Shown here piece after piece: positions 1 through 61,450 of a stretch of 64,000 nt of DNA. The stretch is taken from assembly GCA_030272155.1 (NCBI GenBank), contig CP126200.1, forward strand, positions 1,116,001 to 1,180,000, in the 5' to 3' direction. Numbering within the stretch: position 1 is the stretch's first letter; each line of letters opens with the position of its first letter. The notes under the pieces were generated by a model. That model did not search any database and was not told the DNA's origin. It saw only the letters and a program-made list of their open reading frames with translations. The DNA is from Tetradesmus obliquus (taxonomy: Eukaryota > Chlorophyta > Chlorophyceae > Sphaeropleales > Scenedesmaceae). The position numbers were made by a program, and so were the translations under genes.

Positions 1-3000
1 TGCCAGCTAGAACCCTTACTGCTGCTGCGGGTGATCTGCGCATGTCTGCTGCTGCCGTGTTTGGACTGGCTGCTGCTACTGCTGCTGCTGCTGGTGACTG
101 TGCGGGAGGCGCTCTGCTGCTGCGCCAGGTCTATGTGCTGCTGCTGCCAGGCAATGAAGCGCTTCATGGCCCAGTGCACACGTGGCAGGTCATCAGGGTC
201 CTGGCAGTACAACAGCAGCAGCAGTACAACAGCAGCAGGGTATTGAGCAAGCATGGTGTCTGAAGATCTGTGAAGCGCTTCATGGCCCAGTGCACACTGG
301 GCAGGTCGTCAGGGTCCTGGCAGCACAACAGCAGCAGCAGTACAACGGCAGCAGCAGTACAACAGAAGTGCTGTGAAGCGCTTCATGGACCAGTGCACAC
401 GCGGCAGATCGTCAGGGGTCTGTTACGGTTGGTGTGGCCTGAAGTACAGCAGCAGTAGCAGCAGCAGCAGCGCAGCAGGAAATACAGGCAGGCTCATCCG
501 GTCCACTTCTGTGCTGTGGATGTGCTGTGGATGCGCTATGGATGCGCTGTGGATGTGCTGTGGATGTGCTGTGGATGTGCTGTGGATGTGCTGTGGATGC
601 GCTGTGGATGTGTTGTGGATGTGTTGTGGATGCGCTGTAGATGCATTGTGGATGCGCTGTGGATGCGCTGTGGATGTGCTGTGGATGCGCTGTGGATGCG
701 CTGTGGATGCGCTGTGGATGCCCTGTGGATGTGTTGTGGATGTGCTGTGGATGCGCTGTGGATGCGCTGTGGATGTGCTGTGGATGCGCTGTGGATGCGT
801 TGTGGATGTGTTGTGGATGTGCTGTGGATGTGCTGTGGATGCGCTGTGAATGTCCGGTGGATGTGCTGTGGATGTGTTGTGGATGTGCTGTGGATGTGTT
901 GTGGATGCGATGTGAATGTGTTGTGGATGTGTTGTGGATGTGCTGTGGATGCGCTGTGGATGCGCTGTGGATGTGTTGTGGATGTGCTGTGGATGCGCTG
1001 TGGATGTGCTGTGGATGTGCTGTGGATGCCCTGTGGATGCGCTGTGGATGCGATGTGGATGTGTTATGGATGCGCTGTGGATGTGCTGTGGATGTGCTGT
1101 GGATGTGTTGTGGATGTGTTGTGGATGTGCTGTGGATGCGCTGTGGATGCGCAGTGGATGCGCTGTGAATGCGCTGTGGATGTGCTGTGGATGCGCTGTG
1201 GATGTGCTGTGGATGTGCTGTGGATGTGTTGTGGATGTGCTGTTGATGTGTTGTGGATGTGCTGTGGATGTGTTGTGGATGCGTTGTGGATGCGCTGTGG
1301 ATGCGCTGTGGATGCGCTGTGGATGTGCTGTGGATGCGCTGTGGATGCGCTGTGGATGTGCTGTGGATGCCCTGTGGATGTGCTGTGGATGTGCTGTGGA
1401 TGCGCTGTGGATGCGCTGTGGATGCCCTGTGGATGCGCTGTGGGTGTGTTGTGGATGCGCTGTGGATGCGTTGTGGATGCGCTGTGGATGTGTTGTTGAT
1501 GTGCTGTGGATGTGCTGTGGATGTGTTGTGGATGTGTTGTGGATGTGTTGTGGATGTGCTGTGGATGCGCTGTGGATGTGCTGTGGATGTGCTGTGGATG
1601 TGTTGTGGATGTGTTGTGGATGTGCTGTGGATGCGCTGTGGATGTGCTGTGGATGCGCTATGGATGCGCTGTGGATGTGTTGTGGATGTGCTGTGGATGT
1701 GCTGTGGATGTGCTGTGGATGCGCTGTGGATGCGCTGTGGATGTGCTATGGATGTGCTATGGATGTGTTGTGGATGTGTTGTGGATGTGTTGTGGATGCG
1801 CTGTGGATGTGCTGTGGATGCGCTGTGGATGCGCTGTGGATGTGCTGTGGATGCGCTGTGGATGCGCTGTGGATGTGCTGTGGATGTGCAGTGGATGTGT
1901 TGTGGATGTGCTGTGGATGCGTTGTGGATGTGCTGTGGATGTGCTGTGGATTTGTTGTGGATGTGTTGTGGATGCGATGTGGATGTGTTATGGATGCGCT
2001 GTAGATGCGTTGTGGATGCGTTGTGGATGCACTGTGGATGCGCTGTGGATGTGCTGTGGATGCGCTGTGGATGTGTTGTGGATGTGCTGTGGATGTGCTG
2101 TGGATGCGCTGTGAATGTGCAATGGATGTGCTGTGGATGTGTTGTGGATGCGCTGTGGATGCGCTGTGGATGCGCTGTGGATGTGTTGTGGATGTGCTGT
2201 GGATGTGTTGTGGATGCGCTGTGAATGTGCAATGGATGTGCTGTGGATGTGTTGTGGATGTGTTGTGGATGTGTTGTGGATGCGCTGTGGATGCATTGTG
2301 GATGCGCTGTGGATGTGTTGTTGATGTGCTGTGGATGTGCTGTGGTTTTGTTGTGGATGTGTTGTGGATGTGTTGTGGATGTGCTGTGGATGCGCTGTGG
2401 ATGTGCTGTGAATGTGCTGTGGATGTGTTGTGGATGTGTTGTAGATGTGCTGTGGATGCGCTGTGGATGTGCTGTGGATGCGCTGTGGATGCGCTGTGGA
2501 TGTGCTGTGGATGTGCTGTGGATGTGCTGTGGATGCGCTGTGGATGCGCTGTGGATGTGCTATGGATGTGCTGTGGATGTGTTGTGGATGTGTTGTGGAT
2601 GTGTTGTGGATGCGCTGTGGATGTGCTGTGGATGCGCTGTGGATGCGCTGTGGATGTGCTGTGGATGCGCTGTGGATGCGCTGTGGATGTGCTGTGGATG
2701 CGCTGTGGATGTGTTGTGGATGTGCTGTGGATGCGCTGTGGATGTGCTGTGGATGTGCTGTGGATGCCCTGTGGATGCGCTGTGGATGCGATGTGGATGT
2801 GTTATGGATGCGCTGTAGATGCGTTGTGGATGCGTTGTGGATGCACTGTGGATGCACTGTGGATGTGCTGTGGATGCGCTGTGGATGTGTTGTGGATGTG
2901 CTGTGGATGTGCTGTGGATGCGCTGTGAATGTGCTGTGGATGTGCTGTGGATGTGTTGTGGATGTGTTGTAGATGTGCTGTGGATGCGCTGTGGATGTGC

Positions 3001-6000: not shown

Positions 6001-8818
6001 GTTGTGGATGTGCTGTGGATGTGTTGTGGATGTGCTGTGGATGTGTTGTGGATGCGCTGTGAATGTGCAATGGATGTGCTGTGGATGTGTTGTGGATGTG
6101 TTGTGGATGTGCTGTGGATGCGCTGTGGATGTGCTGTGGATGTGTTGTGGATGTGTTGTGGATGTGCTGTGGATGTGTTGTGGATGTGTTGTGGATGTGC
6201 TGTGGATGTGCTGTGGATGCACTTTGGATGTGTTGTGGATGTGCTGTTGATGTGCTGTGGATGTGCTGTGGATGTGCTGTGGATGTGTTGTGGATGTGCT
6301 GTTGATGTGCTGTGGATGTGCTGTGGATGTGCTGTGGATGCCCTGTGGATGCGCTGTGGATGCCATGTGGATGTGTTATGGATGCGCTGTAGATGCGTTG
6401 TGGATGCGCTGTGGATGCACTGTGGATGCGCTGTGGATGTGCTGTGGATGTGCTGTGGATGTGTTGTGGATGCGTTGTGAATGTGCTGTGGATGTGCTGT
6501 GGATGTGTTGTGGATGTGCTGTTGATGTGCTGTGGATGCGCCATGCATGTGCTGTGCATGTGCTGTGGATGTGTTGTGGATGTGCTGTGGATGCGCTGTG
6601 GATGCGCTGTGGATGTGCTGTGGATGCGCTGTGGATGCGTTGTGGATGTGTTGTGGATGTGCTGTGGATGTGCTGTGGATGCGCTGTGAATGTCCGGTGG
6701 ATGTGCTGTGGACGTGTTGTGGATGTGCTGTGGATGTGTTGTGGATGCGATGTGAATGTGTTGTGGATGTGTTGTGGATGTGCTGTGGATGCGCTGTGGA
6801 TGCGCTGTGGATGCGTTGTGGATGCGCTGTGGATGTGCTGTGGATGTGTTGTGGATGCGCTGTGGATGTGATGTGGATGTGTTGTGGATGCGCTGTGGAT
6901 GTGTTGTTGATGTGCTGTGGATGTGCAGTGGATGTGTTGTGGATGTGTTGTGGATGCGCTGTGGATGCGCTGTGGATGCGCTGTGGATGCGCAGTGGATG
7001 CGCTGTGAATGCGCTGTGGATGTGTTGTGGATGTGCTGTTGATGTGCTGTGGATGTGCTGTGGATGTGCTGTGGATGTGTTGTGGATGTGCTGTTGATGT
7101 GCTGTGGATGTGCTGTGGATGTGCTGTGGATGCCCTGTGGATGCGCTGTGGATGCCATGTGGATGTGTTATGGATGCGCTGTAGATGCGCTGTGGATGCA
7201 CTGTGGATGCGCTGTGGATGTGCTGTGGATGTGCTGTGGATGTGTTGTGGATGTGCTGTGGATGTGCTGTGGATGCGTTGTGAATGTGCTGTGGATGTGC
7301 TGTGGATGTGTTGTGGATGTGCTGTTGATGTGCTGTGGATGCGCCATGCATGTGCTGTGCATGTGCTGTGGATGTGTTGTGGATGTGCTGTGGATGCGCT
7401 GTGGATGTGCTGTGGATGCGCTGTGGATGCGTTGTGGATGTGTTGTGGATGTGCTGTGGATGTGCTGTGGATGCGCTGTGAATGTCCGGTGGATGTGCTG
7501 TGGATGTGTTGTGGATGTGCTGTGGATGTGTTGTGGATGCGATGTGAATGTGTTGTGGATGTGTTGTGGATGTGCTGTGGATGTGCTGTGGATGCGCTGT
7601 GGATGCGTTGTGGATGCGCTGTGGATGTGCTGTGGATGTGTTGCGGATGCGCTGTGGATGTGATGTGGATGTGTTGTGGATGCGCTGTGGATGTGCTGTG
7701 GATGTGTTGTGGATGTGCTGTGGATGTGCTGTGGATGCGCTGTGGATGTGCAATGGATGTGTTGTTGATGTGCTGTGGATGCGTTGTGAATGTGTTGTCG
7801 ATGTGCTGTGGATGCGTTGTGGATGTGCTGTGGATGTGCTGTGGATGTGTTGTTGATGTGCTGTGGATGCGTTGTGGATGTGTTGTCGATGTGCTGTGGA
7901 TGCGTTGTGGATGTGCTGTGGATGTGCTGTGGATGTGTTGTGGATGTGCTGTGGATGTGTTGTGGATGTGCTGTGGATGTGTTGTGTGGATGTGCTGTGG
8001 CCGCCTGATGACCTCTTTAAGCATGCATCGTGATTGCTTTCTAAACGTGCTATGGATGCGTTGTGGTTGCGTCTCTGGTGGTGCCCGGCACTTGAGGGCT
8101 GATGATGCAGCATGCCAAACGCCAAAGGGGAGATTTCCAAGCAGAAGCTGTCACACCACGCACTGCATTGCACCTGCTGCGCAAAACATCTGCTGGCTGC
8201 AAGCACTTGGCGGACAACGCAGGCATGCCAACAGCACACAAAAGACGTAGACTGACAAACAATGATAGCAAAAACATCTCAATATTGGCGCACCTCCTGG
8301 CGTGGCATCTCTGGCGGCTGCAGGCTCTTGAGCGTGGGCACTAGCATACAGCAGCACCCAAGCTTCTTTCAACAACATAACCAGTAAGAAACCAGACATG
8401 CCGCACCTGCTGGCGGGGCATCTCTGGCGGCTGCAGGCTCTTGAGTGTCAGCGCCAGCATGGCACCCGCCTCTGAGGGGCCCTTGTCGCCTGCGGGTGGT
8501 GCGATGTGAATGTGTCACAGTGAAATGCATTGCAATGACAAGGGCAGCGGCGGTAGCAGCAGCAGCAGCAGCAACAAACTCAGTTTCATCAATGAGCTCT
8601 TGTCACTGAAAGATAGGAACAACCAGAACAAGTCAAAGGCTCAGCACAGCGTCCACCCAGCAGCCACAGCAGTGCAGCAGGTGGTGCCAGCTCACCTCCT
8701 GCGCGGTACATCTCCAACGCCGTCCACAGCAGCAGCAGCCGCTTGCGCCCGCAGCCCACCAGACCCAGCAGCTGCAGAGAAGGACAGATAGAAGCCATGC
8801 AGCAGCATTAGCAGCATT

Positions 8819-8855
<37 letters not shown>

Positions 8856-10497
8856 CGGAAGCCCCAGCACTTGATGAACTAGGTATGCTGGCCCCAAACT
8901 GTACCATGAGTGCAACCACCAAGTCATGTGCAAGAGAAGCTGCACACCAAAGAGGCACGGAATCTCTATCAGTCAAGTGTTGATATAACATGTTATAACA
9001 AATGATAACACAGACAGCTAGCCAGCCCACACCTGCCCCGCCTCGACTAGCGCCACGAGCTCTCGATGATCAATGACACCACGTCATAATACTATGCTAC
9101 ATAACAGTGTTATAACAGCATGGCACATGCCGGGCCCCACCTGCCCCGCTTCCACCAGTGCCACAAGCCTGTCCTCTTGCAGCGGCAGTGCCCCCAGCTC
9201 TCTATGATCAGCGGCACCGCTGCATATCACTGTGTTACATAATAACAGAATAACAACATAACACATGCCAGCCCACCTGCCCCGCCTCCACCAGAGCAAC
9301 GAGTCTATCTTCCTGCAGCGGCAGCGCCCCCAGGCTCTCGATGATGAGCCCAACCGCCTCTGAGGCTTCAAGCCGTGCAGCCACAGGGCCGTGCAGCCCA
9401 GCCACAAAGCGGCACAGCTTCAGCTGCTGCTCGATCTGTTGTGTAGGCGAGGTTTGGAGGGTTGAAAAAAGTGGGCGGCAGAGCAGCAGCAGCAGCAGCA
9501 GCAGCAGCAATGACGGAAAACTTAGAGCCTGGCGTGCAGACAGTAAGAGTCACCCGCGCAGCGTTGTGTTTGAAGGCTGCCAAGCCATGCAGGATTCATG
9601 AGCCCGACCGCCTCTGAAGCTTTAAGCCGTGCAGCCATAGGGCCGTGCAGCCCAGCCACAAAGCGGCACAGCTTCAGCTGCTGCTCGATCTGCAGTGCAA
9701 CAGGTAAGAAAGGTGTGAGAGGAGGACAAAACAACATGCACATCCAGCACAACAGTGCCATCAAAGCATGCTTCACAACACAGCTCCACACAAGCCGCCG
9801 TACCATAGCCTCCAGCAACAGCACAACCAGTAGGCCAGTGATTGCTCAACACACCTGCAGCGCCAGCGCCCCCCCCCCCCCCCCTCCGCCCCCCCCCCCC
9901 CCCCCCCCCCCGCGCCCCCCGTTCTTCCTGTACCAGGCTCGTGCTTTGGCCAGCAGCTCTCGCACCTCACCCTCCAGGTCTGCCCCACAAGCCCCCCTAA
10001 TGCATGCATCACCCCACTTGCATGCGGCATGTGACTAACCTAGCAAGGAACAGCAGCATGCAGGCCCCGCAACCACAGCACCAGCAACGCCTGCGACAGA
10101 CCGCACACACCCAGACAACTCACAACGCCATTGATTCCGCACCTGCAGCGCCAGCGCGCCGCCCTTCTTCATGTACCAGGCCCTAGCCTCAGCTAACAGT
10201 ACACACACATGCCGCTGACAACAGAAAATAAGGCATCAAAAGCCCCACCCACCTGCAGTGCCAGTGCTCCCCCTTTCTTGCGGTACCATGCCCTCGCCTC
10301 AGCCAGCAGCTCCCGCACCTCACCCTCCAGATCTGCTGCTGCCAGCACACCCCAGGCAGCCGGGCCTGACAGGCTGTAGCAGGACCCGGCCCAGCCTGAT
10401 GCTACAGCCGCCGATGCTGACGAGGCGCTGCTACAGCCTGGTGAGCCTGACAGCAGTCCTGACAGCGACAGCAGCCGCGCTGGAGCGTGCTGAACGT

Positions 10498-10536
<39 letters not shown>

Positions 10537-11115
10537 AAGATGAGGCAGGCTTGCTGGAGTTGGTGGTGGTGGTGGGAGGTGTAGGGGCTTCTGTTGTTGA
10601 TGGCGGCGGCGGTGTGGCAGCTTCAGCAGCTGCAGTCTGGCTAGTTGCAGTGGCGGCTTCCTTGCTAGCTGTTGCAGCAGCAGCAGCAGGGCCGGGCAGC
10701 TCTCCGCTTTCACAGCTGCCCAATGTGTACAGTGGCTGATCAGCAGCAGCTTCGGCTTCTGCATCAGCCACCCTAGCTGCTGCATCTACTGTAGCAGTCT
10801 CCGCTGCTGCTGCACCACCACCAGCAGCAGCAGGCGCGATCACTGGCGCATCTGCTGCTGCTGCCGCTTCTTTGCGCGCTGCTGCTGCCGCCGCCAGAGC
10901 AGGCCTCACTGCTGCTGCTGCTGCTGCTGGGCGTGCTGCTATGAGGGCCTCCAGTACCCTGGCATGTGCTAGACCCTCAACTGCAGCACCAAACCTATAA
11001 TCATCATACAGCATAGACAGCAGCAGCAGCAGGATCAGCAGCAGTAGGATCAGCACCCTGGCATGTGCAAGACCCTCAACTGCAGCACCAAACCTGCAAG
11101 CAACAAACAGCACAG

Positions 11116-11151
<36 letters not shown>

Positions 11152-11224
11152 CTAATAGGATCAGCACCCTGGCATGTGCAAGACCCTCGACTGCAGCACC
11201 AAACCTGCCACCAACAAACAGCAC

Positions 11225-11261
<37 letters not shown>

Positions 11262-13242
11262 TAGTAGGGTCAGCACCCTGGCATGTGCCAGGCCCTCAAC
11301 TGCAGCACCAAACCTGCACCAGCGCAGCATAAAGTGTCAACAACAGCAGCAGCAGGATCAGCAGTTGAGTCCAGCGAGTGCAAGTACAGCTCTAGTGCCA
11401 GTCAGCAGTTTAAAAGCAGCGCTGTCCTTTAAGGCCAGGTGCAAAACGCTGCAACATGAATATGACAGCCATGTAACATAAATGTAACGCACCATGATGC
11501 GTCGCCGGCCGCTCTGCTTGATTCCATACCGCTCTTGTAGTGCTGAACCAGGTGCAGTACAAGTTACCTAAAACTGTTAGTAAAAAGCAATAACAGTTAC
11601 TAAGAATGTTACAACGCACCATATGGCGTCCCCTGCTGCCCTGCTCAGCTCCATGCCGCTCTTATAGTGCTCAAAGGCGTCCCGGGGCGAGCTTGCCAGC
11701 AGCACTAACCCACTAATAGGGATTCCCTACCAGTGAATGCAGTTTGTACTTCAGTCATATCATATCAGGATGATGCGACGCACCAGATTGCATCTCCTGC
11801 TGCCCTAGAGAGCTCCATGCCGCTCTTATAGTGCTCAAAGGCGTCCCGGGGCGAGCCAGCCAGCAGCGCCCAGTCGCCCTTGGCCTTCTGCAGCCGGCCC
11901 CAGCGCCGCTTCTCTTTGAGTTCCTGCAGGGAGACATCAAGTCAGCAACAGACGGATCATGGCTGTGCTCTGGCTGCATTGTGGTGGTGCAGCCAGCCCC
12001 AGCGCTGCTTCTCTCACAGCTCCTTTATATACAACATTACGATATGACATGATGCAACATATTTGAAAAACACAAACCCTGGCGCCGCACCTCCTCGTTG
12101 ACGTTGAGCTTGCGCAGGCCCTCCTCCAGCTGGGCCAGGCTGGAGCCCAGGAACTCGCCTGGGGGTAAGATGCATGCGGTTGGCAGCAGCAGCAGCAAGC
12201 AGAGCGTGAGGTGCAACAATATGTGCAAGCATTGCGCAATGCATCGTGCACCCAAGTGACACAGCGGAGAACTCAATGAGGCGACGGCTGACAAAAAAGC
12301 CTAAGCAGAGATTGCACAAAGAAATGGCTGCCGGCATCAAACCCGACCAAACAGTGCAGCAGCGGCCGGCTGCAACGTGATGCTGTCCTGTGCATCTGCT
12401 TCAGCCTGTCTGCTATGAGCTTGTTATTTATGGTTGTGACCTGTGGCGCTCACCTGAGTCTGCGTATGTGTTGAGCTTGACTGTGGCCACGCTGGCATTG
12501 AGCACCGCATCCTCAATCACTGCAGCCGCAGCACACATCATGTTGCAGCGTGGATGTGGAGCTTGTGGTCAAATGAGGTTTGGGTTGGCTAGACTCATGA
12601 CGTATTTTTTTTGAATGCCGCTGACAGCCAAGCAGACAGATTGAACAGCAGTCCAGCATCAGCAAAGGCCCGCATACCAGTAGCAACATCATGTGAGTGC
12701 AAAAATGCTTGCACCGCTAGCATTGAGCACCGCATCCTCAATAACTGCAGGCGCAGCACACACCACGTTGCAGGGTGGATAGGGCAGCTGGGCAGCACAA
12801 CCAGGCGCCTGGGATGATTTCTTTGATTTAATTTGAACTCTGACGTTGAACAGTACTGGAGCCAAACAGCACAATGCGAGTGCACAGCCCAGCATCAATA
12901 GAGGCAACAGCCCTGCTGCAACTGCAGCTTCGTAAAAAACACTGACATAATACGCGTGGAAACCATCAGCAGCCCTGACGCACCTCAGAGCAACCACAGC
13001 GCAGGTTTTACAGCCCCCATGCACTGGCCGGAGCATACACTATTACTCACCAGCCAGCATGTCAGCAGCAAACTCTGTCATGTACACTTCCAGGTGCGCC
13101 CACAGGTGCTCTGCGGGCAGCAGCATCAGCTCACGCAACGCCCGCAGCCCTGGCGTGGCCAGGTGGGCGGGCGAGGGCTCGAAGGCGCAGCAGCGCGAAA
13201 GCAACGCCTCCGGCCACTGCCTGTGTGGAAAAAGTGCGGCAT

Positions 13243-13278
<36 letters not shown>

Positions 13279-14229: not shown

Positions 14230-14272
<43 letters not shown>

Positions 14273-27400: not shown

Positions 27401-27446
27401 ACGTGCAGCATCAATGTGCATAAGCATCAATCGCTCACACAGCAGC

Positions 27447-27866: not shown

Positions 27867-27927
27867 CAGCTGTGACATCACGCAGCAGCAGCCAACACAC
27901 GACTTCTGAAAGCATTCATAGAAATCA

Positions 27928-35293: not shown

Positions 35294-35331
<38 letters not shown>

Positions 35332-35426
35332 TTCAGAGATAAGCCAGCCAGGCCCTTGTTGACGCCTACAAGGGCCATCTTGCTGACAGCATACATGGCA
35401 ATGGGCGCAGGCTGCCTGCAGATGAG

Positions 35427-35467
<41 letters not shown>

Positions 35468-40185: not shown

Positions 40186-40221
<36 letters not shown>

Positions 40222-47068: not shown

Positions 47069-50000
47069 TCAGCAGCTGATATCGCCGCTGCCCTCCTCAG
47101 CAAGCCTTGCCAGCCGCTGCGCTGCCATGACGCTGTTAGCAGCAGCCCTGAATGTTTTCAAGCCTACGTAGTGGCCTGCATGGATGTTCAGGGTGCTCTT
47201 CAGCACTGCCCACTTGCTGAACTTTGGGGTTTGGCCTGCAGCGATGCTGGCAGCCTCTTCTTGCTTGTGACCTTTGTCGTACAGCAGCGCTCCTGCAGCG
47301 AACACGGCAAAACCAACGGCCTGCAAACAAAGCAATTTGGCATCACAAGACAAGACAGAGGCATGTACATGTTCAGGCTGTGTCAGCAGGTGCAGTGACG
47401 GTCCAAAGGCCCTGCCCTCCAGCGATGCTTGCTGCCTCCCCCTGCTTGTAGCCTTTGCCGTAGAGCAGCGCACCCGCCGCCAACACAGCAAAGCTGATAG
47501 CCTCGAGGGACAGCTGTCAGCAAACTGACATGCCACTGCCCCCCACCATTGCTGTGTGTCCCATGTGTCCCACATGTCGTGCATGCCCCACATGCCCCCA
47601 CCCTGTCCCACAACTGTCCCGCCCACCTGCAGCCAGCTCCAGCTGTCCCAGGCCTCACCCAGGGACACACCACCCCACCGCCACCACTACCACAGCCACA
47701 GGTCCAACCTGTCCCATATGTCCCGCATGTCCCACCCACCTGCAGCCAGCTCCAGCTGTCCCAAGCCTCACCCAGGGACACACCACCACTGCCGATGTGC
47801 AGGTAGAACAGGCCCAGCCCAGCCTGCAGGCACACGAAAAATAATAATAAAAGTGAACATTCATGATCGAAAGGTTTCAGCAGCTAGTGTGTATGTGCTG
47901 CTGCTCTGCCATTCAGCTGCAAGTACACCAGCCCTGGGCCAGCCTGCGGGCCTTCACATGTCATCCCTATGCCAATTCGGCCAGTCTCAGCGGTAAACAA
48001 CGCATGACCAAATACCTTGCGTGCTGTGATATGCCGGCGCCAGCTATGTGCATGTGTGCTTCACCCCTCCTTCCTCACCAGCCACACCAGCAGCGTCCGT
48101 GCGTTCTCCAGCACGGTGCGCGCTGCCGCCCCGACCTGCTCCGTGACGTACATGCCGCTGATGTTGTACACCAGCACGGCAGCAGAGCTGAGGAACAGCA
48201 CCACTGCACGTGAGCACCCACAGCAGCAGCAGAAAGCAGCAGCAGGATGACAACACCCTGTGAGCCTGGATGGCTTTGCTGGCTTGAGAGGGTCCCACAT
48301 CTGCAGTGCTGCGCAAACTGTGCACCATGCACTAGCCGCCTATCCTCTGCCACCCAGCACGCGGTTTTTCTAAGCAGCACTCAACCGCCCTCGTGCTGCA
48401 GCTGCTGCTGCTCCTGCTGCTACCGCTGCTTGTGAATACATGTGTAGCAAGTGTGTGCATCAACACCCACCTGCAATGCTTGTTGAGCTTTTCACCATGC
48501 ACCAGCTGCCCACGCTGTCCTCAGCCAGGCCGCTGCCGTCCTCAAAAGGCAGCTGTTTAACCACCGCAAAAAACAGAAGCGATCCCAAACCCCACACCCA
48601 CCTGCAATGCTGGTTGAGCTCTTCACCATGCACCAGCTGCCCACGCTGTCCTCAGCCAGCCCGCTTCCATCCTCAAAAGGCAGCCGCTGCAGCAGCGGCA
48701 GCGCGCCGCCCAGCATCACTACACTGCCAATCACGCCCTCCCAGCCCACCACCTGCATGAAATGCACCGAGGTGTGTGATATGTACACCGAGCTCTGCAC
48801 AGCTCTCTGGTTAATCTCTTGTATTGCTGCGGAACCTGTTGGCCAGCAGGGTGGTAGTGCTGACCTGCTGACACACATCCATCCTGCTGCAGCCCTGCAT
48901 GCAGAAGCTGGCGCACATGCAACACCTTCTGCACTCGAACGGCAACACAGTGCGTGTTGAGAACAAACTACCACACTCATGCTGCTGCTACATGTATGCT
49001 ACTGCAGGTTTGCTGCTTCTTGCACCTCGTATCAGCTGTTGCTGCTGCTGCTGCTGCTGCCTCCCCCCAACCCACCTTGAGTGGGTGCATGCCCATCTCA
49101 CTCATGAAGTGGTCCTCAACAGTCACCTGGCCCGCCTGGATGGCCTGGCATCAAACAGCACAATGAAGGCAGCAACAAATGAGGTCAGTTAGTGTTTGCA
49201 GCAGCGTAGCAGCAAGGTGCTGACGCGGCTTGCAGTGGTCACCTGCCCCGCCTGGATGGCCTGGCATGGTACACAAAGGACAGCGCACGCGGCACATTTG
49301 GTGCAGGTTACGCAGGTACAGCATTATTCAGAAGTGTCAGTGCTGTTGTTTTGTCATTGATGACGCATGCAGCATTGGCGCTGCTGAGCCAGTGTGGACC
49401 TTGTGTATCAGCCGTGTTGCAGTTGCTGTAGCAATGCACATGGCAGCGCCCAACAGCTGCGCCTATGTCGCTGATAGCTGGGCGGACCCACCCAACAGCA
49501 TGCCGCACCCTTTGCTGCGCTGCTTGTTGCTGACGTGTTGCACATATCAAGAGGCCAACGCGTTCACTGTACTGCCGCTCACCTGTGACAGGATGATGAG
49601 GCACATGCCCAGCAGCGCCTTCTTGGGGTCTGCTGCTGCTGCACCACCCTCACCAACTCCACTGCCGCCAACGCCGCCTCCTATGCCAAGCATAGGCAGC
49701 AATGATGAGATCGATGCCTGTGACGGCTCAGTGCTGCTGCTGCTGGATGGGGTGCTGAGTAGGTCTTGCAAGCTGTCAGCGCCGCTGCTGTCATTGCCTG
49801 CCAGCACGCGGGACACGCCAACCAGGGAGATGCCGGTCTGCAGGGGGGACACACAGCAAGGGGACACACCAGAGGTGGTGGAGCACTGCTGCATGCAGCA
49901 TGATTCTGTGCAAAAGTGAAGACATGCTGGACTGGCAGCGGTGCATGCTGACCCGCATTCTGTTGAGTGGCTGTCGCAAAGCTGTGAGGGCACTGCCCAC

Positions 50001-52120
50001 ATCAGCAGGGGCAGCTGCGCTTGCACTAAGAGTCCCACAAGCACCACCTTCTTCACTCATGCATTATATTTTGCTGCATTTAAGCAGTGCCGCAGCTCTT
50101 CCTCACCATGCACAGCGCCACGCCCATGAAGTGCCACTTGTTGAGGTGCCGCTTCAGGAACAGCACCGCAAACAGCGCCGCAAACAGCATCTCCGATCCC
50201 CGCAGGATCTGGAACACTGCACGAAGGCACACAGCACACAGGAAAGCAGCGCAGGTGCAGGAACATGTTCAGTCCATGGCGCGCCAAGTTATGTTTTGAC
50301 TTCAAAGCGCCAGCGCAAACACAGATGCATGTACTGTACAGTGCAGCAGGCAGGATGCTGTTACCTACATGGTCGGCAAGGGCGTCAGGTTAAAATTGAC
50401 GTGCTGCATGCATGCATGCATGCGTCATCTGCTCACCCTGCGCCTTGTTGCAAAACAGGCTGCTCAACTGCTGCAAGGCACATTTGCCTTGCAAATCTTC
50501 ATCCACAGCGCTAAAACACTGCCCGACCCTGCCCAAACCTGCCCACCTGACGCTGCTGCATACAGCAGCCCCACATTCATCAGTGTGGTGGCAGCAAGCT
50601 TACTGCTGCAAGCTGCTTCCGCCTCCCAAACCCCTCGACACCCCCCCAAACCCTAATCAAAGCCTTGATTAATAGAAAGCCATGCTGCGAAGCACTAGGC
50701 ACCTGACGCTGCAGCACACAGCAGCCCCACATTCATCAGTGTGGTGGCAGCAAGCTTACTGCTGCAAGCTGCTTCCGCCTCCCAAACCCCTCAACAAACC
50801 CCCCAAACCCTGATCAAAGCCTTGATTAACAGAAAGCCTTGCTGCGAAGCACTACGCACCTGACGCTGCCACATATAGCAGCCCCACATTCAACAGTGTG
50901 GTGGCAGCAAGCTTACAGCTTCAAGCCGCTTCTGCCTCTTGGACCCCTCGACCCCCCCCCCCCCAAACCCTATCCAAAGCCTTGCTGTGCAGCACTACGC
51001 ACCTGATGCTGCCACATATAGCAGCCCCACATTCATCAGTGTGGTGGCAGCCAGGTCAAAGCCAGTGGGGATGCACAGCATCAGCCCCTCCTTCAGTATG
51101 AACTTTGCGCCACTGCTGCTGCCACTTCCGTGAACTTCATGGTCATCTTCACGGTCATGTTCATGGTCATGTTCATGCTGCTGCAAGCGGTCCTGTGCAC
51201 GCGCTGCTAGCAATGGGACTGAGAGGTCGCTTGCATCCCCTGCTGCTGCTGCTCCCGCTCCTGCTGCTGCTGTGCTTGTGGTGCCTGCAGGTGCCTGCAT
51301 GCAAAGAGCATTCGCAGCTTGAGTGCCAGCAACATGTCGGGTTGTTGAGCAGGGCGCACAAACAACAGGCTAGTATAGAGAAGGACCAGGCTTCGAAATG
51401 CTTGGTGCTGCAGAAGCAGTAGACAGTTCTGAAGAACTGGCGTCGAGTGCTGCTACAGTAGCAGCTTATCACCGTGCTGTGGCCACTTGCTAAGCTGTGG
51501 CAGCCTGAAGGACAGCGCACAACTGTATCCATGCCTATCCATCAAACATAACATGTGATTGTACCTAGCCGAGGGATCTGGCAGTGCATCAATCACCTCA
51601 GCAGCAGCACCAGCTGTGGCGATGGCAATAACCTTGCGCGGTACTACCCCAGCCACATGCCTCCGGCTGCTGCTGCTGCTGCTGCTACTGTTAGAATTGC
51701 CTGCCTTCTTCTTCCGCTGCTGCCATGCCTCCATGCCCCAGCCAATGGGCAGGCAGAGAGCCATTGCTACAAACATGAGCGCTGTCTGTAGCCATGGCTT
51801 TTGAAACGGCTTGGTGTCGCCTGAGCAATCCTGGCCCTGAAGCTGATATACTGCAAAACGGCGGGAATCGCGGTAGATTACAGCACCATAACGTGTGTAG
51901 TGTTGCTGTGGGGTGCTTTATGCTTGGCTGGAGGATACACAGTACTACTGCTGGAAGCAGCAGCAGCAGCAGCAGCAGAACCAGCAGCAGCAGTAGCAGC
52001 AGCCATGTCTGCTGTTGGGCAGGTCCGTGCAAGCCACTCACCGACTTTGGACAGCAGTGCGTTCACTGCGCCGCACAGAATCAGCACAGCTGCGTTGAGC
52101 GATGCAGACAGCCCCGCCAT
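47069..52120 (-). CDS. SLC35F6-like transporter (drug/metabolite transporter superfamily)
   Basis: Multi-pass membrane protein related to SLC35F6 (nucleotide-sugar-transporter-like, endolysosomal in animals); substrate unknown. Exons: 52120-52042, 51850 to ~51565, ~51294 or 51274 to 51003, 50216-50107, 49837-49583, 49135-49076, 48752-48602, 48203-48079, 47823-47740, last 47320-47069; about 557 aa. The exon 2/3 junction is the only uncertain one. Family blocks: WLQTALMFVAMALCLPIGWG; FDLAATTLMNVGLLYVAAS; FQILRGSEMLFAALFAVLF; TGISLVGVSRVL; VEDHFMSEMGMHPLKVVGWE; MYVTEQVGAAARTVLENART; GLGLFYLHIGS. Ser-rich and His/Asp-rich loops interrupt it. An alternative last exon (47501-47373) starts in the same phase. 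Edge copies fill most introns. Confidence 0.9.
47373..47501 (-). CDS. Alternative last exon (10a) of the SLC35F6-like gene
   Basis: After a CTCGAG acceptor it codes AISFAVLAAGALLYGKGYKQ and stops at 47373, in the same phase as exon 10b (47320), whose start codes AVGFAVFAAGALLYDKGHKQ. Over the shared ~23 codons compared, most differences are at third codon positions, so both seem to have been held as protein. It may be a mutually exclusive terminal exon or a young 5'-edge copy. Confidence 0.55.
   Translation of the reverse strand, partial: AISFAVLAAGALLYGKGYKQGEAASIAGGQGLWTVTAPADTA
47625..47690 (-). repeat. 3'-edge copy of transporter exon 9
   Basis: Near-identical copy of GGVSLGEAWDSWSWLQ plus GTGGGCG donor, downstream of the intact exon 47823-47740. 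It is flanked by short tandem CATGTCCC-type repeats. Confidence 0.88.
48470..48555 (-). repeat. 3'-edge copy of transporter exon 7
   Basis: Copy of LPFEDGSGLAEDSVGSWCMV..STSIA plus GTGGG donor, 130 bp past the intact exon 48752-48602. Confidence 0.88.
49238..49262 (-). repeat. 5'-edge copy of transporter exon 6
   Basis: CATCCAG acceptor and codons for AGQVT, upstream in sense of the intact exon 49135-49076. Confidence 0.75.
50555..50925 (-). repeat. Three 3'-edge copies of transporter exon 3
   Basis: Copies of LAATTLMNVGLLYVAAS plus GTGCGTAG-type donor at about 50860-50925, 50700-50765 and 50555-50615, spaced about 145-160 bp after the intact exon ending at 51003. Confidence 0.9.
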
Positions 52121-54202: not shown

Positions 54203-55100
54203 CTGTGCTGCATATGTAACAGCAACAACACATCAGGCTGAGCCATAAGGACACACACAGGTGTGAGGTCAGTGGACAGCAGCTACCTGTGCAGCATTTC
54301 CTGAACCAAACCATGCTGTTGCAGCATGGATTGTTTGCTCTGACCGGATCATGTGCAAACTTTTATATGCAATCTGGCCAAGAGGACCAGACGTGAACCC
54401 ACCACAATGTGTTGCCGTGATCAACATAACATGTTACTAACACATAAAGTGACGGGATGCTAAGGCAATCCCAGGTAATGGTACGTGCTCTTAGAGTAAG
54501 TCCGCCCCGCAAGCAACACACAATATCCAATACTGGTGCTGTATCTCCTCCCAGAAAGCTATTAGAACAGTCCCTATCTAGTTCTGATGCTTTGCAGTCA
54601 TGCCACACCCAACGCGTCCAATTCAGCCTGTACAAGCCTCTGATTCACTGCACCGCAATGCAGTACATTCCATGCCCTGCTCAAACCGCAACACCGCTGC
54701 ACACCTAGAAACTGGATCAATCACCCACGGCACACACCTCGACAGCAACTCTTTCCATCATCTCGATGCACTAATTGCAACAGATAACTCACCATACAGC
54801 CACCGGCCCCCTAACGACCCATCCACCGCCTCGGCAAACAAACACACCAAACTCAGCATGCAGCCACCACCACCCTGCCAGCATCTACCGACAGCTGCAC
54901 CTTCAGCGCAGCAGCAGCAGCCAGGCCCTTGCCCGCCCCATCAACAGCAGCAGCCACCACACATCTTCAAAGCACCCTCAAACCACCTGCACACGCCAAC
55001 CGCTGCCGCAGTGATTGCAACAGGTGAATCAGCATGCAGCCACCAGCACCCTCACACAACCCTAACAGCCCTATCCACCACCTCAACAAACAATCTTAGC
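54203..55100. other. Downstream of the acyl-CoA reductase; one edge copy
   Basis: Contains, at about 54880-55010, a decayed copy of the end of the reductase's last exon and its 3' flank. A segment at about 54440-54640 is less GC-rich and open on the - strand but unrecognised. Confidence 0.5.
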
Positions 55101-58100
55101 TCAGCATGCAGCCACCACCACCCTGCCAGCATCTACCGACAGCTGCACCTTCAGTGCAGCAGCAGCCAGGCCCTTGCCCGCCCCATCAACAGCAGCAGTA
55201 ACAACCACCTGCGCCTCTGCTGCAGGTGACACCGCAGCCTCCATCTCTGCTGCCTCTACACTGCTGGACTCGCTACATGCCATGCTGCTGTTGCTGCTGC
55301 TGCGGCTGCTAAGCGGAGCAGCAGCAGCGCCAATGTAGCTATCGGCGCTGCGCAGCAGGGCTGTTGATGATGGTGGTGGTGGTGAGGCTTGCGTGATGAG
55401 CTCGCGGATGGCTGCAGGTGCGTCGGGCTTGTGGACGAAGAGGTTGATGAAGTGGCCGGTGGACTCTCCAGGGCAGCGGAACAGCAGCCTGCGCACGCCG
55501 GACAGAAAGGTCAGGCTGCGGGAGGAGCAGCAGCAGGACAAGGCAGGCGGGCAGCAAGAGAGCGTGTCAGCAAAAGGCTAAAGCAGCAGCGCTTGTACAG
55601 GTGTGACAATGGCGAGTACAGCAGCATGTTTGCTGTGCCATGCCATCAGTGAAGGCAAGTGTGTGCACTGCAACAGCAGCTGCGACGGACGCATCCAATG
55701 TTGCAACAGAAACGCAAGAGGCACAGTGACCTTGGGCAGGGGTTCTCCTGGACAAGCACTGCTTGAAGGTGTGCAGCTTTGCTTTTTTCATGTTGAAGAC
55801 TGTCCATTTTTACAGTGTCAGCACTCACCCGTAGTCGTCCCAGTTCACGGCAGCGCCGTCGTAAATGATCTGCCACGCTGGCTGCTCCTTCGGTTCAATG
55901 CGCTTGCGCAGCGCCTGGCAGTTGTCCACGCATGACACGATGGAGCCTGCACAAAAAAACAATACAACATTTTGAGGATTGAAACTTCCCTCAGGCACAA
56001 GCCCAGCGAGCCGATACTCCGCTCATGAGGACTAGTATTGTACCAGTCCTTCCGTCATTGCAGCAGCAGCAGCAGCAGCAGCAGCAATAATGGGGCAGGC
56101 AGTCACCAATCAGTTTTCGCATCATAAGCGCGCTTGCGCAGTGCCTGGCAGCTGCCCTCGCATGACACGACGCAGCCTGCAGCAACAGCAGCAGGTTAGT
56201 CAAGAAGCAGGAGCATCTTATCGCGTTGCACCAAACAATGTGCCTTGCGTGAGTTTGTTGCAAGGCATTTGATCCTGTTGGCTGCAACGTGACCTAGTCA
56301 TCTTGGGCAGCAGCCAGTGATGTTATAGGATGTTGTAGACAAAGGGAGGCAATGACGCAGCAGCAGCAGCAGCCACTCACGGTTGTAGTTGAAGCTGTTC
56401 TGCACGCACAGCGCCTTGAATGCGTTGCGCAGCAGCAGCGCCTTGCGGCCCCGCCCGCTCCACTCCAGTACCTTGCAGATGGGCCACAGCTTGGCCTCTG
56501 TGAGCCAGCGGCCAATGGCCAGGCCCCAAGCAGAGGGCTCGTGCTTGCCCTGGTAGGTGAAGTAGCTGCGAAGAAAGGCAAGAGGTTAGAAGCAGATGTT
56601 TAGTAGAGAGCAGATGGGCCACAGCTTGGCCTCTGTGAGCCAGCAGCCAGCGGCCAATGGCCAGGCCCCAAGGGGAGGGCTCGTGCTTGCCCTGGTAGGT
56701 GGGGTAGCTGCGTGCAGTAAAGTAGAGGCAGGTGCACGCTGTGTTTAGAGCAGGCGTGCTGTATGCTTGTACATGCTGAGGTTGTTGGGTGTACAGTATT
56801 GGCAGGCGAGGCTTGACCTGGTAGGTGGGGTAGCTGCGCAGCATGCATGCAGGCAGGCAAGCATGCAAGGTGGTTGCTCAGATAGATGCAGATGGGCCAC
56901 AGCTTGGCCTCTGTGAGCCAGCGGCCGATGGCCAGGCCCCAGCGGGGTGGCTCGTGCTTGCCCTGGTAGGTGAAGTAGCTGCAGAAACAAAAAAGGACAT
57001 GCGACAGTAAGGACAACCGCAACATGGAGCAACTCAGCAGCAGCAAAGCGGATGTAAGACAGGATGCTTTGAAGGGCATGCACCACAGGCGTTCCAGATG
57101 GCAGCACCTCTGGAAATGAGTGCCGCCTGTCTCGAGGTAAAACACGGGGATGCATAATAAACCAGAACAAGTCAATCTTCATACGGAAGTGATATACAGC
57201 AAAAGGCGCTCACAATCAACAGGGCAGGTGAAAGGTGGTGGGTTCGCGGCCCAGAACTGCGCCATCTCGCCAACTGCCTTGGCCGTGTGACACGTCAGCA
57301 TGACTACAAAGACCATTTTTCGTACAAAAACATGACATAACACATGACAATACTCACGTCGAGAAGGGCAGGCGAAGTGGGGGCGGGTTGGCTGTCCAGA
57401 ACTCTGCCATTGCCCCAATCGCCTTTGCCATGTGCAGCGGGTACACGGCAGCAGAGGCGGCATGGTAGATGGTCACACCAGGCGCTGCCGCTGGGCCTGC
57501 GTCTGCGGCGCCTGCTGCTGCTGCCGCGTTGATGAGGGCGGCAACTGCAGGGCCAGTAAGCAGTGTGCAGGATTGGCACAGGAGGGCGAGGAAAAATGTA
57601 TATGTGTGTGTTGGAGATGCTTGGCGAGCAGTGATATCTGCAAGTACGGGCTGATTGTATGATGGCTGGCAAGGGTAAGCCACCAGGTACTGAACACAAT
57701 AGTGAGCACAATATTGAGATTCAGTAACACTACTACAATATTCTCAACCACAACACTTACCTGTGTCGCAGGGGATGAGGTCCAGCAGGTAGTGGGGGAG
57801 GCTGAGGCCAAAGCTGTCGCCAACTAATTTAAATTACATCCATAACAGCAACCATAACGCTTGTAACATTCACCTGTGTCACAGGGGATGAGGTCCAGCA
57901 GGTAGTCGGGGAGGCTGAGGCCAAAGCTGCCGCCAACTAAATCAGCTCACATCAATAACAGCAGCCATAACGTTATAACAGTCACCTGTGTCGCAGGGGA
58001 TGAGGTCCAGCAGGTAGTCGCGGAGGCGCAGGTCAAAGCTGTCGCCAACTAAATCATATCACAACAATAACAGCAAAAATAACGCTTGTAACAGTCACCT

Positions 58101-60517
58101 GTGTCGCAGGGGATGAGGTCCAGCAGGAAGTCGGAGGCGTAGGCCAAAGCTGTCGCCAATTGATTCAAAATTACATCAAGAACAGCAACCATAACGCTTG
58201 TAACAGTCACCTGTGTCGCAGGGGATGAGGTCAAGCAGGTAGTCGGAGGCGTAGGCCATGCTGCTAATGCTGTGGAAGAAGCCCGCACCGTACGCTGCAA
58301 GTGGGGTGGGGGGGGGGGGGGGGGGGAGAAATTGCAGCAGCGGCAGGCATGTCAGGAGAGAGTATTGTGCAACAGACGCTTCTGATGGCTTGTGCTATCA
58401 TGCGTGTGTAGATCCACAGAAAATCTGAGTTGCCCAGAAGGCAGCAAGGCGCATTGTCATGATCATACGCACTTTGTCATGCGCCATTACACTTTGTTGT
58501 TATATAAAAAGGGTTTACTGTGCCATCTGCTCACCCATCATGAAGCCAGGTGATCCTGCAAAGTTGTTGATGTACCCTGGGTAGGGGCCCCCAGCCGTAG
58601 CAGTGCAGCAAATGGCACCTCTGCTGTACAACAAAGCAGCAACTGCGCCCTCCTCACACAAACACGCACCCATCATGAAGCCGGGTGAGCCCGCAAAGTT
58701 GTTGATGTATCCAGGGTAGGGGTCACCAGCCAGGCTGCTGATGAGGCTGGGCCGCACAATGACCTTGGACACACCCTGGGGAGGGCAGCAGCAGCAGCAG
58801 CAGCAGCAGCGCCAGCTTGAGAATGCTTGCAGCACACGTACCTCAGCAAGGTCCAATCAGCAGTAGGTTGTGCACAAGCAGCATTTATCCCAAAGCTCAG
58901 CATCACTGCAGATTGCCATCGTGCAAAACAGCAGCACACAACCCCAAGACTAGGCGCTGCACAAGCGCTCGCGCTCTCACCTGCAGCTGCGCCTCTCCCA
59001 CCAGGCGCTCAGTCAGCAGCTTGCCAAAGGCATACGTGCACATGAAGTTAAGACCCCGCATCAGCACCCAGTCAACAACCAGTCAACCAGTCAGACTTTA
59101 GTCAGCTAGACATCTCTGAACCCTGAAATTGTAACAGTTCAAAAGCCTCCCACCTGCAGCTGTGCCTCTCCCACCAGGTGCTCCGTCAGCAGCTTGCCGA
59201 ATGCATACGTGCTCGTGAAGTTGAGCTGCCTCATCAGCGCTGCAGCCTCAGCATCTGCATCCTCAGCCTCCATGGCCAGCAGGGCTTCCACCAGCTGGCT
59301 GTGAGCGATGTTTAAGTTACTCCATGCTAAACAACAAAACCACAGTATCACAAAAATACACTTTGCACGAAGCTTCCTTACCCACCTCTAGCTGTGCCTC
59401 TCCCACCAGGTGCTCCGTCAGCAGCTTGCCAAAAGCGTACGTGCTCGTGAAGTTCAAACTTGCCATCAGCGCTGACGCCTCAGCATCTGCTGAATCCGCC
59501 TCCATAGCCAGCAGGGCTTCCACCAGCTGGCTGTGTGTTAGGGCTTCATTTGGTGCGCTGAGGGGCAGGGACAGCGGCACGTTGTGCAGCTCCTCGCGCA
59601 CTAGGGAGTTGCGGGGCTTGAAGTTGTTGACAAAGTAGGTGCTGGTGAAGAGCAGGCAGGCCAGGCTGGGCCAGGTGGAGGCGAGGCGCAGCAGGCGCTG
59701 TGTGCCCAGGTAGTTGGACCTGTGGGGTGGGGTGGCGAGGCAGGCAATGGGTGAGGTGTTAGGGGTGTGTTACTCGCTGCAGAAGAGGTATTGAATGGTA
59801 GTGTAGCATTAGCCAGATCAGTAAAGAGTGCCCTGCAAACAGGCATGCACAGAACATGCGTTGCGGTGGTTGGAGTTATTCACAACGTATTCATATGAAG
59901 TAGGTGCTGGTGAAGAGCAGGCAGGCCAGGTGGGGCCAGGTGGAGGCGAGGCGCAGCAGGCGCTGTGTGCCCAGGTAGTTGGACCTGAGGGGTGGGGTGC
60001 GGCGGCGAAGGGCACATCAGGAGCAGGGGTTGGCAGGCGGCCAAGAGGCGAGTGGTGGCCTCACAGCTAAAACCAGCAACAGCACAAGGCGCAGCATGCC
60101 ATGCAGCCCAGGCTGCCACAGCAGCAGCAGCAGCAGCAGCAGCAGGTGCTTGACTCGAGCCAGTGACAAACCGCTGCAGCCAGGCCTGCCACTTTACACC
60201 AACACATTCAACGGCTTCTTGGAGACAACCCTGCATCCAGCACCGTCATTCTCATAAGAGGTTTAGATCCAATCCCACCTAAGCGTCTTCTGGATGGGTG
60301 CGTCCAGCTCCAGGCTTGCAGCGCAATGGATGACCACCTGCACCTCGCCAGCCAGCGCTGCAGTATCCTGCTCGCTCAGCCCCAGCCCTGGCGCATTCAT
60401 GTCTCCCTCCACAGCCGCCACCTTTGAGAAGACGTTGCGGCCGCCTGCTGCTGCCTCCTCGTGCAGCATGTTGAAGAGCGCTGAGCACAGCAGCTGCGAG
60501 TGGGGTGAGGACGACGG

Positions 60518-60557
<40 letters not shown>

Positions 60558-61450
60558 TGTTTAGACGGCAGTGAGCTGTGGCCTCATCATGTAGAATGTT
60601 GCAGAGCGCAGAGCATAGAAGCTGCAGCAAGGGGAGAAGGAAGGATTGAAAGCGGGTGACAGCGGCAGCAATAGCAGCAGCGATGGAAGGACAAGGCACG
60701 AGCGCTAGTTGTCGGTGTGCCAGCTGGTCATGCAAAGGTTGCAGCGCACAGGCCAGTCTCAGGAGTGCGGCAGTTGTTGTAGCAGCTGGCGTTGAGCAGT
60801 GCCCATCCAGTGGCAGCTGAGCTGGGGTGACACCTGAGCTCGGCGGTGGTGCCAAAGGACAAATTCTTGACAATGTTGAGGAAAGCCAGAATCCTGAAGG
60901 ACCGTCCTCCTGCAGCTGGTCTGGTGTGCTGTCTGCCTGGCTTCTTGTGCACAGCATGACAACAAGCAACACACACATTTTGCAGCTGGTTATGACTAGG
61001 GACACAGGCTGCTGCAGCCACCGAAGCAGCATCAAGGTGCACGCACCTTGTCCACTCGCTGTGCTGCTGAGAGCTGCTTCTTGCCTCGTGCCAGCAGGTA
61101 CACCTTTTTGACCTGCACCACACCAGGCCAGCCACCCAGCAATGCCTTAGAACGTTCTGTTTTATTCATACGCGCCTGCTGGCGTTTCAGAGTGCTACGT
61201 ACTGTTTTGGGCTCTGCACTGCAAGCCAAGCATGTGACTGCCTCACAGTGCAGCCTGCTGCACTGCCGACACAGCTGTGACCAAGCGTTGGGCGCAGCGC
61301 AGAAGCGCAAACGTTTCTTTAGCCGGCACGCACCTCTGTGAGTCGAAGCAGCTGCTCAACGACAACAGAGCCCAGAAAGCCGAGCCCTCCAGTCACAAAC
61401 ACCGTCTTCCCAGCCAACTCCGCGCTGGGAGAAAACATCTCTGGCTGCAT
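55101..61450 (-). CDS. FAR: Fatty acyl-CoA reductase (alcohol-forming)
   Basis: Reduces fatty acyl-CoA to fatty alcohol with NADPH, for wax esters or ether lipids. Exons: 61450-61334, 61112-61047, 60493-60279, 59719-59386, 58775-58670, 58294-58211, 57544-57358, 56565-56381, 55946-55829, 55515-55101; all phases close, 608 aa. The Rossmann motif VTGGLGFLG (residues 19-27) leads to VKKVYLLARGKK, typical of FARs. VIHCAASLELDAPI, SNYLGTQRLL and LLFTSTYFVNN follow. The catalytic Y227-x3-K231 lies in TSTYAFGKLLTEHLV, then VIVRPSLISSLAGDPYPGYI. The C-terminal FAR domain is traceable (TIYHAASAAVYP, YQGKHEPSAWGLAIGRWL, GRGRKALLLRNAF). The tail is Ala/Ser/Val-rich without a PTS1. Start ATG lies 13 codons before the first strand. 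Nearly every intron holds exon-edge copies. Confidence 0.94.
56115..56180 (-). repeat. 5'-edge copy of reductase exon 9
   Basis: Decayed copy of the exon start (CVDNCQALRKRI-like) after a CTGCAG acceptor, upstream in sense of the intact exon at 55946. Confidence 0.75.
56600..56990 (-). repeat. Three 5'-edge copies of reductase exon 8
   Basis: Copies of YFTYQGKHEP..WGLAIGRWL..EAKLWPIC at about 56884-56990 and 56603-56710, and a short one near 56806-56836, upstream in sense of the intact exon 56565-56381. The first two keep the frame over ~30 codons. Confidence 0.9.
57220..57290 (-). repeat. 3'-edge copy of reductase exon 7
   Basis: Copy of AKAVGEMAQFWAANPPPFT, past the intact exon 57544-57358. 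Confidence 0.85.
57760..58145 (-). repeat. Four 3'-edge copies of reductase exon 6
   Basis: Copies of ASDYLLDLIPCDT plus an identical GTGA donor context at about 58097-58140, 57985-58022, 57870-57910 and 57760-57800, spaced about 111-114 bp from one another and from the intact donor at 58211. A regular five-member tandem array. Confidence 0.93.
58307..58326. repeat. Poly-G tract
   Basis: 20 G on the + strand, just upstream in sense of reductase exon 6, where it reads as poly-C before the acceptor. Confidence 0.95.
58533..58590 (-). repeat. 3'-edge copy of reductase exon 5
   Basis: Copy of PYPGYINNFAGSPGFMMG plus donor-like site, past the intact exon 58775-58670. Confidence 0.88.
58980..59295 (-). 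repeat. Two 3'-edge copies of reductase exon 4 with the catalytic motif
   Basis: Copies at about 59155-59295 and 58980-59045, both with donors and open frames, both keeping Y-A-F-G-K and most of LLTEHLVGEAQL. The larger one spans about 46 codons and retains the acidic Ala/Asp/Glu stretch. Confidence 0.9.
59895..59990 (-). repeat. 5'-edge copy of reductase exon 4
   Basis: Copy of SNYLGTQRLLRLASTW..LACLLFTSTY after its own acceptor, 270 bp upstream in sense of the intact exon at 59719. Confidence 0.9.
60571..60624 (-). repeat. 5'-edge copy of reductase exon 3
   Basis: CTGCAG acceptor and a copy of LLCSALFNMLHEEA (LLCSALCNILHDEA), 130 bp upstream in sense of the intact exon at 60493. A CTG tract lies between the two. 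Confidence 0.88.

Follow-up and report, generated by a model that had tools for sequence, protein, structure and literature searches.

Truncated copies of exon edges in introns of the green alga Tetradesmus obliquus keep coding and splice-signal constraint

In a 64-kb stretch of the genome of the green alga Tetradesmus obliquus (GenBank assembly GCA_030272155.1, contig CP126200.1; G000:C10:1116001-1180000 in a genome of 104.66 Mb and 17 contigs), hereafter the window, introns contain truncated pieces of the exons that they adjoin. Are these pieces the decaying remains of tandem duplications, as a preliminary description of the window proposed, or is something keeping them? We find that passive decay fails to explain the copies, as their exon-derived part and their splice signal stay functional. 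We give roughly even chances to the further proposal that these introns hold spare exon edges under selection, coding-intact and splice-competent though most are unable to form a complete exon, with selection acting either on an unrecognised role in splicing or on their capacity to become the edge after deletion or exchange between the repeats.

The window was analysed together with four 50-kb blocks (B1-B4, 200 kb; L009-L028), one each from contigs 1-4, giving a data set of 264 kb. Gene models came from our own gene-finding hidden Markov model (HMM), trained on the same 264 kb, and 568 predicted exons were reduced to 242 by requiring a score above 5, a length of at least 50 nt, low complexity below 0.3, and that the exon not be a copy of a better-scoring one; window exons starting before 8300 were excluded beforehand, and the 9-20 kb part of B3 was left out of exon and array counts. 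The 50-nt edges of these exons (236 5' edges and 234 3' edges, 470 in all) were searched for in masked flanks of at most 1.2 kb. This gave 92 edge hits, merged where overlapping into 81 unique copies at 52 of the 470 edges; 6 mid-exon hits were kept out of the set. Copies of 5' edges lie upstream of 25/236 exons (37 hits) and downstream of none, and copies of 3' edges lie downstream of 27/234 exons (55 hits) and upstream of none, exactly the arrangement that the preliminary description had reported. Whole-exon duplicates that were later truncated would put both edge types on both sides and were rejected, with 0 opposite cases. Mid-exon pieces recur upstream in 3/141 exons (5 hits) and downstream in 1/141. 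In the same search, exon edges gave no hits in the flanks of other exons and reverse-complemented edges none in flanks, all copies being in direct orientation.

More than 50 copies had been claimed for the window, and 52 were recovered there, distributed over 35 of its 103 edges; a further 29 lie in the other blocks, at 17 of 367 edges (Fisher p = 6e-14). The 152 direct repeat pairs less than 700 nt apart divide into 95 at exon edges, 32 at weak or copy exons, 16 in introns only, 7 in exon interiors and 2 in intergenic DNA. Self-BLAST of the window, excluding a satellite below 8.1 kb, gave 82 direct and 4 inverted pairs, with 81 of the 82 direct pairs less than 1 kb apart; in B1-B4, direct and inverted pairs within 1 kb number 27/5, 3/0, 13/4 and 31/2, B2 being sparse with its 3 direct pairs. 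Steps between successive junctions span 99-306 nt (median 134), and 56 of the 81 fall within 99-164 nt, in agreement with the described spacing of 105-160 bp. None of the 81 is shorter than 99 nt; closer direct pairs are present at 62, 70, 94 and 95 nt and were not classed as exon-edge. Taken modulo 3, the junction distances show no preference (24/27/30), on which ground in-frame exon extension was rejected. An edge has up to four copies, and divergence ranges from 0 to 21%. Gaps between exons are longer where they hold copies, with medians of 553 (n = 43) and 325 (n = 166), both of which missed exons would inflate.

The differences between copies and exons are concentrated where they do not alter protein. 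Copy-exon mismatches number 87, 63 and 249 at codon positions 1, 2 and 3 (approximately 1510 sites each), and copy-copy mismatches 64, 40 and 118 (approximately 630 sites each). Copies differ from their exons at 133/2846 (4.7%) of 0-fold, 10.4% of 2-fold and 183/886 (20.7%) of 4-fold sites, a 0-fold/4-fold ratio of 0.23 (bootstrap over edges 0.18-0.28) that is similar in the window (0.22), the other blocks (0.25) and Pfam-supported genes (0.25). Neutral copies of an exon that accepts silent changes only, when simulated, gave a ratio of 0.53 (range 0.40-0.73, 60 runs), and the exon branch would have to be quadrupled in length to bring it down to 0.23. Of the changes private to one copy, 64 are synonymous and 67 non-synonymous, where random change would be about a quarter synonymous by our own estimate from the genetic code, which was not simulated. 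Third-position composition or transition bias was rejected as the cause, given that the excess is found in all four bases and transitions make up about half of the changes at every position.

Splice signals are constrained as well. The splice dinucleotide is kept in 72/81 copies, comprising donor GT in 40/47 3' copies and acceptor AG in 32/34 5' copies, in line with the preliminary description. Over acceptor positions -16 to -3, the 32 copies with AG are 61% identical to the exon's acceptor, and they score 3.21 as compared with 3.53 in exons and 0.31 +/- 0.33 after random change; over donor positions +3 to +6, the tendency is similar, the 40 copies with GT scoring 1.39 as compared with 1.98 and a random 0.51 +/- 0.19. 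Splice-site strength in the copies is 6.7 against 6.5 for acceptors (median) and 5.0 against 6.3 for donors. The idea that decay grows with distance did not hold up: the farther copy is the more diverged in 11 families and the nearer in 8, with 2 ties (sign p = 0.65; Spearman 0.04).

Intron flanking the copies mostly lacks this conservation. Intron beside a copy junction averages 0.70 identity, with a null of 0.61, and in 11 of the 22 copies of less than 5% exon divergence the intron similarity ends within 12 nt. Divergence at third positions shows no clear dependence on intron identity (rho -0.15, p = 0.19). Nine copies have no third-position difference at all, and five of these adjoin intron whose identity exceeds the null by no more than 0.01; in the copy of window exon 28987, 0 of 33 third positions differ over 98 nt beside intron of 0.59 identity (null 0.61).

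Our HMM gene finder called edge copies as exons. After copy-like exons were removed, window proteins matched the Pfam profiles DnaJ (2-63/63), adh_short_C2 (4-235/236) and NAD_binding_4 (1-258/258), with partial matches to BTB/BACK/Kelch, Abhydrolase_1 and EamA/SLC35-type families; where the profile is matched end to end without them, the copies are dispensable for making the protein. A seventh gene region (8.4-15 kb) gave a sub-threshold hit only. The genes and their copies are as follows (strand in brackets).

8286..9692 (-), exons 8407-8489 and 9277-9435; 3' copies 8286-8347, 8995-9059 (a BLAST pair only) and 9049-9220, and 5' copy 9598-9692, from BLAST pairs and alignment
10140..11867 (-), exons 10253-10373, 10844-10980 and 11784-11923; 3' copies 10140-10199 and 11603-11703, plus an array of 5' copies (to 11364)
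12454..15055 (-), exons 12454-12519, 13051-13220, 14091-14204 and 14954-15055; 5' copies 12715-12780 and 13325-13518, 3' copies 13735-14020 and 14469-14867
18067..18391 (+), DnaJ gene (Pfam DnaJ) with exon 18296-18391; 5' copies 18067-18110 and 18175-18209, the latter being one of the 81
27435..30600 (-), BTB/BACK/Kelch gene (Pfam) with exons 27932-28107, 28987-29191 and 30266-30418; 3' copies 27435-27720, 27797-27863 and 28724-28829, 5' copies 28267-28318, 29336-29389 and 30480-30600
34250..36447 (-), short-chain dehydrogenase gene (Pfam adh_short_C2) with exons 34250-34395, 35119-35284 and 36223-36301; 5'-copy arrays 34482-34877, 35345-35609 and 36397-36447
39308..41324 (+), alpha/beta hydrolase gene (Pfam) with exons 39630-39801, 40078-40413 and 40852-41088; 5' copies 39308-39551 and 39941-40003, 3' copy 41254-41324
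47604..51115 (-), SLC35/EamA-like transporter gene (Pfam) with exons 47740-47823, 48627-48752, 49076-49144 and 51003-51115; 3' copies 47604-47674, 48463-48553 and 50544-50919, 5' copy 49238-49267
54768..60621 (-), fatty acyl-CoA reductase-like (FAR) gene (Pfam NAD_binding_4) with exons 55116-55515, 55829-55946, 56381-56565, 58211-58294, 58670-58775, 59386-59719 and 60279-60493; copies 54768-54953, 56130-56181, 56610-56712, 56887-56987, 57752-58146, 58532-58596, 58974-59065, 59149-59303, 59898-59999 and ~60575-60621

The geometry of the copies is accounted for by tandem duplication across splice junctions, a conclusion supported by the polarity, the longer gaps and clean tandem arrays at 57752-58258 (112 nt x 4.5) and 50544-51051 (157 nt x 3.3). 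This part of the preliminary description stands, while its picture of decaying decoys finds no support, given the codon and splice-signal constraint. Polarity would follow because a tandem duplication over one junction survives only if the message stays intact, and no junction-aimed mechanism would be needed for it, since duplications within exons should be purged. Some excess of arrays at exon edges remains beyond this purging argument: of the 16 merged arrays of period 80-330 found with Tandem Repeats Finder (TRF), 12 touch an exon edge, as compared with 7.3 +/- 2.0 at random and a maximum of 12 in 300 random placements. By period, TRF rows number 212 below 40, 8 in 40-100 and 11 in 100-140. 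Runs of (GCA)n/(CAG)n, approximately 9-19 units long, lie inside several edge arrays between window positions 8799 and 60556 (e.g., 11108-11151, 13245-13277, 35296-35468), and such runs may help in seeding duplications.

Many relatives of the FAR gene occur across the genome, and some stretches of these were compared. No short-range repeats were found at the FAR loci at 65-68 kb of contig 4 and 2.796 Mb of contig 10, one 62-bp array lies at 58 kb of contig 4, and several arrays lie at 7.094 Mb of contig 2. Copies had been claimed for every large gene. They do occur in all seven gene regions of the window, but the two repeat-free FAR loci and the low count of edges with copies in the other blocks show that the claim does not extend beyond it. 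At 7.094 Mb of contig 2 (L033 1781-3340), a 5'-edge array comprises three copies beside the intact exon, with differences that are mostly silent by eye; its (CTG)n-rich spacers appear by eye to keep the reading frame open, and 3'-edge copies are present too. Matches to the window FAR gene are split at query residues 231/230 and 293/288, whereas those to the contig 4 and contig 2 paralogues run through without a break; of these four unbroken matches, two contain a TGA. The split points are the window introns 57545-58210 and 58776-59385, both with edge copies; judged from sequence, this two-intron difference could equally reflect gain in the window or loss in the others.

What, then, would keep the copies functional? 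Our best explanation, which we hold tentatively and with somewhat less than even confidence, is that junction-spanning duplications are followed by a phase in which copies are kept promotable by deletion or exchange with the real edge. Short tandem duplications, with a unit of approximately 100-145 nt and rarely longer, would repeatedly cross one splice junction, as the geometry indicates, each placing a truncated exon edge, splice site included, in the adjacent intron and lengthening it. The exon part and splice signal would from then on stay functional while the surrounding intron mostly diverges, the pattern seen in the comparisons above. Since edge and copy are direct repeats approximately 120 nt apart, deletion or exchange could fuse the copy's junction onto the real exon and so turn the copy into a real exon edge, and lineages whose copies hold a frameshift, a harmful amino-acid substitution or a splice site that no longer works would lose the gene upon fusion. 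Copies could thus stay promotable with no need of being spliced. Under promotion, constraint should be strongest at the junction, and frameshift gaps are indeed rare there and commoner inward (0/770, 1/807, 3/797, 4/687, 2/528 and 6/364 sites per 10-nt bin), a gradient flattered in its first bin by local alignment, which is blind to gaps in the last few letters. Promotion also predicts relaxation once the splice site is dead, and the 9 copies that lack the splice dinucleotide look relaxed, with a ratio of 0.36 on few sites. Finally, it predicts perfect exon parts beside unrelated intron, as in five of the nine copies with no third-position difference, for which recent exchange would account.

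Several observations weigh against this explanation, besides the flattered junction bin. The hard 99-nt lower limit of spacing has no explanation in it. The gene models are those of our own HMM, and Pfam-supported genes contain 35 of the 81 copies. As many as 22 of 27 alignment gaps in the copies are not multiples of three, and such a gap affects 16/81 copies, so many copies are partly decayed. Flanking intron identity is at least 0.80 in 21/81 copies, which implies that a neutral young class exists, and divergence at codon positions 1 and 2 falls with intron identity (rho -0.23, p = 0.037), as for a simple clock. Conversion tracts were tried, and the identity-run test lent them weak support (39 pairs, p = 0.047; 1 pair below 0.05). 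No promotion or exchange event was observed among our comparisons, and the exchange rate would have to be high enough for selection yet low enough to allow approximately 20% divergence at fourfold sites.

Among the alternatives, direct use by the spliceosome, with copies serving as alternative acceptors or donors, small cassette exons or stepping-stone sites and their coding part and splice site selected directly, is possible although we consider it rather unlikely. It would explain the coding constraint and the retained site strength, and a duplication of this kind in a potato gene gave a new intron (PMC4974935). However, the inner ends of the copies have no excess of splice sites over the null (26% vs 32%; 21% vs 21%), which led us to reject mutually exclusive, duplicated or alternative exons with both splice sites. 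The few AG/GT cases at inner ends were seen by eye only; several 5' copies do not start with GT, which bears on AG/GT recursive splice sites. Were they cassettes, 7 of the 9 5' copies followed by a strong donor (score >4) would preserve the frame. With the best site, frame is otherwise kept in fractions not far from one third: 11/23 (score >2) and 13/27 (score >0) of 5' copies, and 8/25, 11/31 and 16/39 of 3' copies. Cassette exons were considered and set aside, the frame evidence being suggestive for 5' copies with strong donors and not for 3' copies. The flat modulo-3 spacing and the end-to-end profile matches of the DnaJ, dehydrogenase and FAR proteins without copies also stand against direct use. 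We favour the indirect route by promotion because inner ends lack excess sites, spacing is flat modulo 3, and cassette frame is near chance for 3' copies.

We are more doubtful that the copies were diverged at birth, through recombination between very different haplotypes or homeologues that set the other allele's functional edge beside the resident one. Were the source a functional allele, most differences would be expected to be silent, the splice sites good and the introns diverged, and lengthening the exon branch fourfold in the simulation reproduces the observed ratio. Against this, very high diversity would be needed, approximately 20% at fourfold sites (exon 9277 and its own 3' copy have 14 mismatches, 12 of them at third positions over 80 nt, and one 1-nt gap). 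The five copies without third-position differences that adjoin intron at null similarity do not fit either, nor does the L033 paralogue, where two copies have a common copy-specific boundary and silent changes, by eye.

Improbable, in our judgement, is the neutral account, by which junction-spanning duplications accumulate, copies are passively decaying junk, and enrichment and polarity come from purging in exons. Polarity requires nothing more than this, the frameshifting gaps and the 21 copies with conserved intron agree with it, and in the arrays at window 58211 (57752-58258) and B3 46555, the intron part was clearly duplicated with the exon part and both are similarly conserved. It is opposed by a 0-fold/4-fold ratio well outside the simulated range, by splice signals that keep function at 61% identity, and by the many exon parts conserved beside near-random intron. 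An assembly artefact is most improbable, with nothing found in its favour, because the copies are diverged, polar, up to four per edge and absent from controls, and because, among the matches listed, contig ends carry TTTAGGG telomere repeats (both ends of contig 1, one of contig 2 and one of contig 3).

How do the copies relate to known systems? Introner elements are mobile repeats common to many genes and a source of intron change in protists and algae. The present copies likewise concern intron change over many genes; introners, however, are shared among genes, whereas these copies were found by likeness to their own neighbouring exon. Introners were rejected for the window, as only 1 of 82 direct pairs there is more than 1 kb apart (such pairs number 26, 17, 21 and 8 in B1-B4). 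In the potato RdRp gene, a junction-spanning tandem duplication led to a new intron that arose with a cryptic donor (PMC4974935). The duplication geometry is alike, but that is one case, whereas here 264 kb hold 81 copies that stem from either type of edge, in most cases lack inner splice sites, and show signs of constraint. In the Rogers model of intron gain (Hellsten ATP2A1), an exon piece with AGGT is duplicated and an intron forms between the copies; as here, tandem duplication yields extra splice sites and leaves the protein unaltered, but the duplication lies within an exon, whereas our copies lie in introns with one splice site each (model as described in PMC4974935). Rogers-type gain, with both splice sites from AGGT, was rejected because inner copy ends lack an excess of acceptors or donors. 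Small tandem duplications also arise by break fill-in (PMC8355091), a candidate source of short direct duplications; our own analysis showed no connection of this route with splice junctions or with a unit of 99-145 nt. As far as seen, neither the potato case nor the Rogers/Hellsten model describes constrained copies, and no description of constrained exon-edge copies was found among the matches listed, which cover open-access titles and abstract openings. The duplication route is thus known, while the prevalence and constraint of the copies look new.

Repeats of other kinds were also noted. Window positions 510-8000 are a 7.5-kb satellite of 11-nt units (TGTGCTGTGGA, approximately 681 copies, 88% match) with strong GC skew on one strand. 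Block B3 at approximately 9000-20000 (L019-L020) is GC-rich with long overlapping open reading frames and is possibly a mobile element. A telomere motif recurs every 889 bp, five times, at G000:C1:1170-4753, which suggests a subtelomeric tandem repeat near the start of contig 1.

In the sources cited above, tandem duplications that multiply splice sites are described from single cases; here the process is seen many times in one genome and in a narrow size class, which opens it to statistical study. The copies provide a natural system for measuring how the spliceosome chooses among near-identical competing sites, and annotation and codon-based tests would take such copies for exons. If the constraint is true, part of the intron sequence of this alga would be under protein-level selection outside the usual message.

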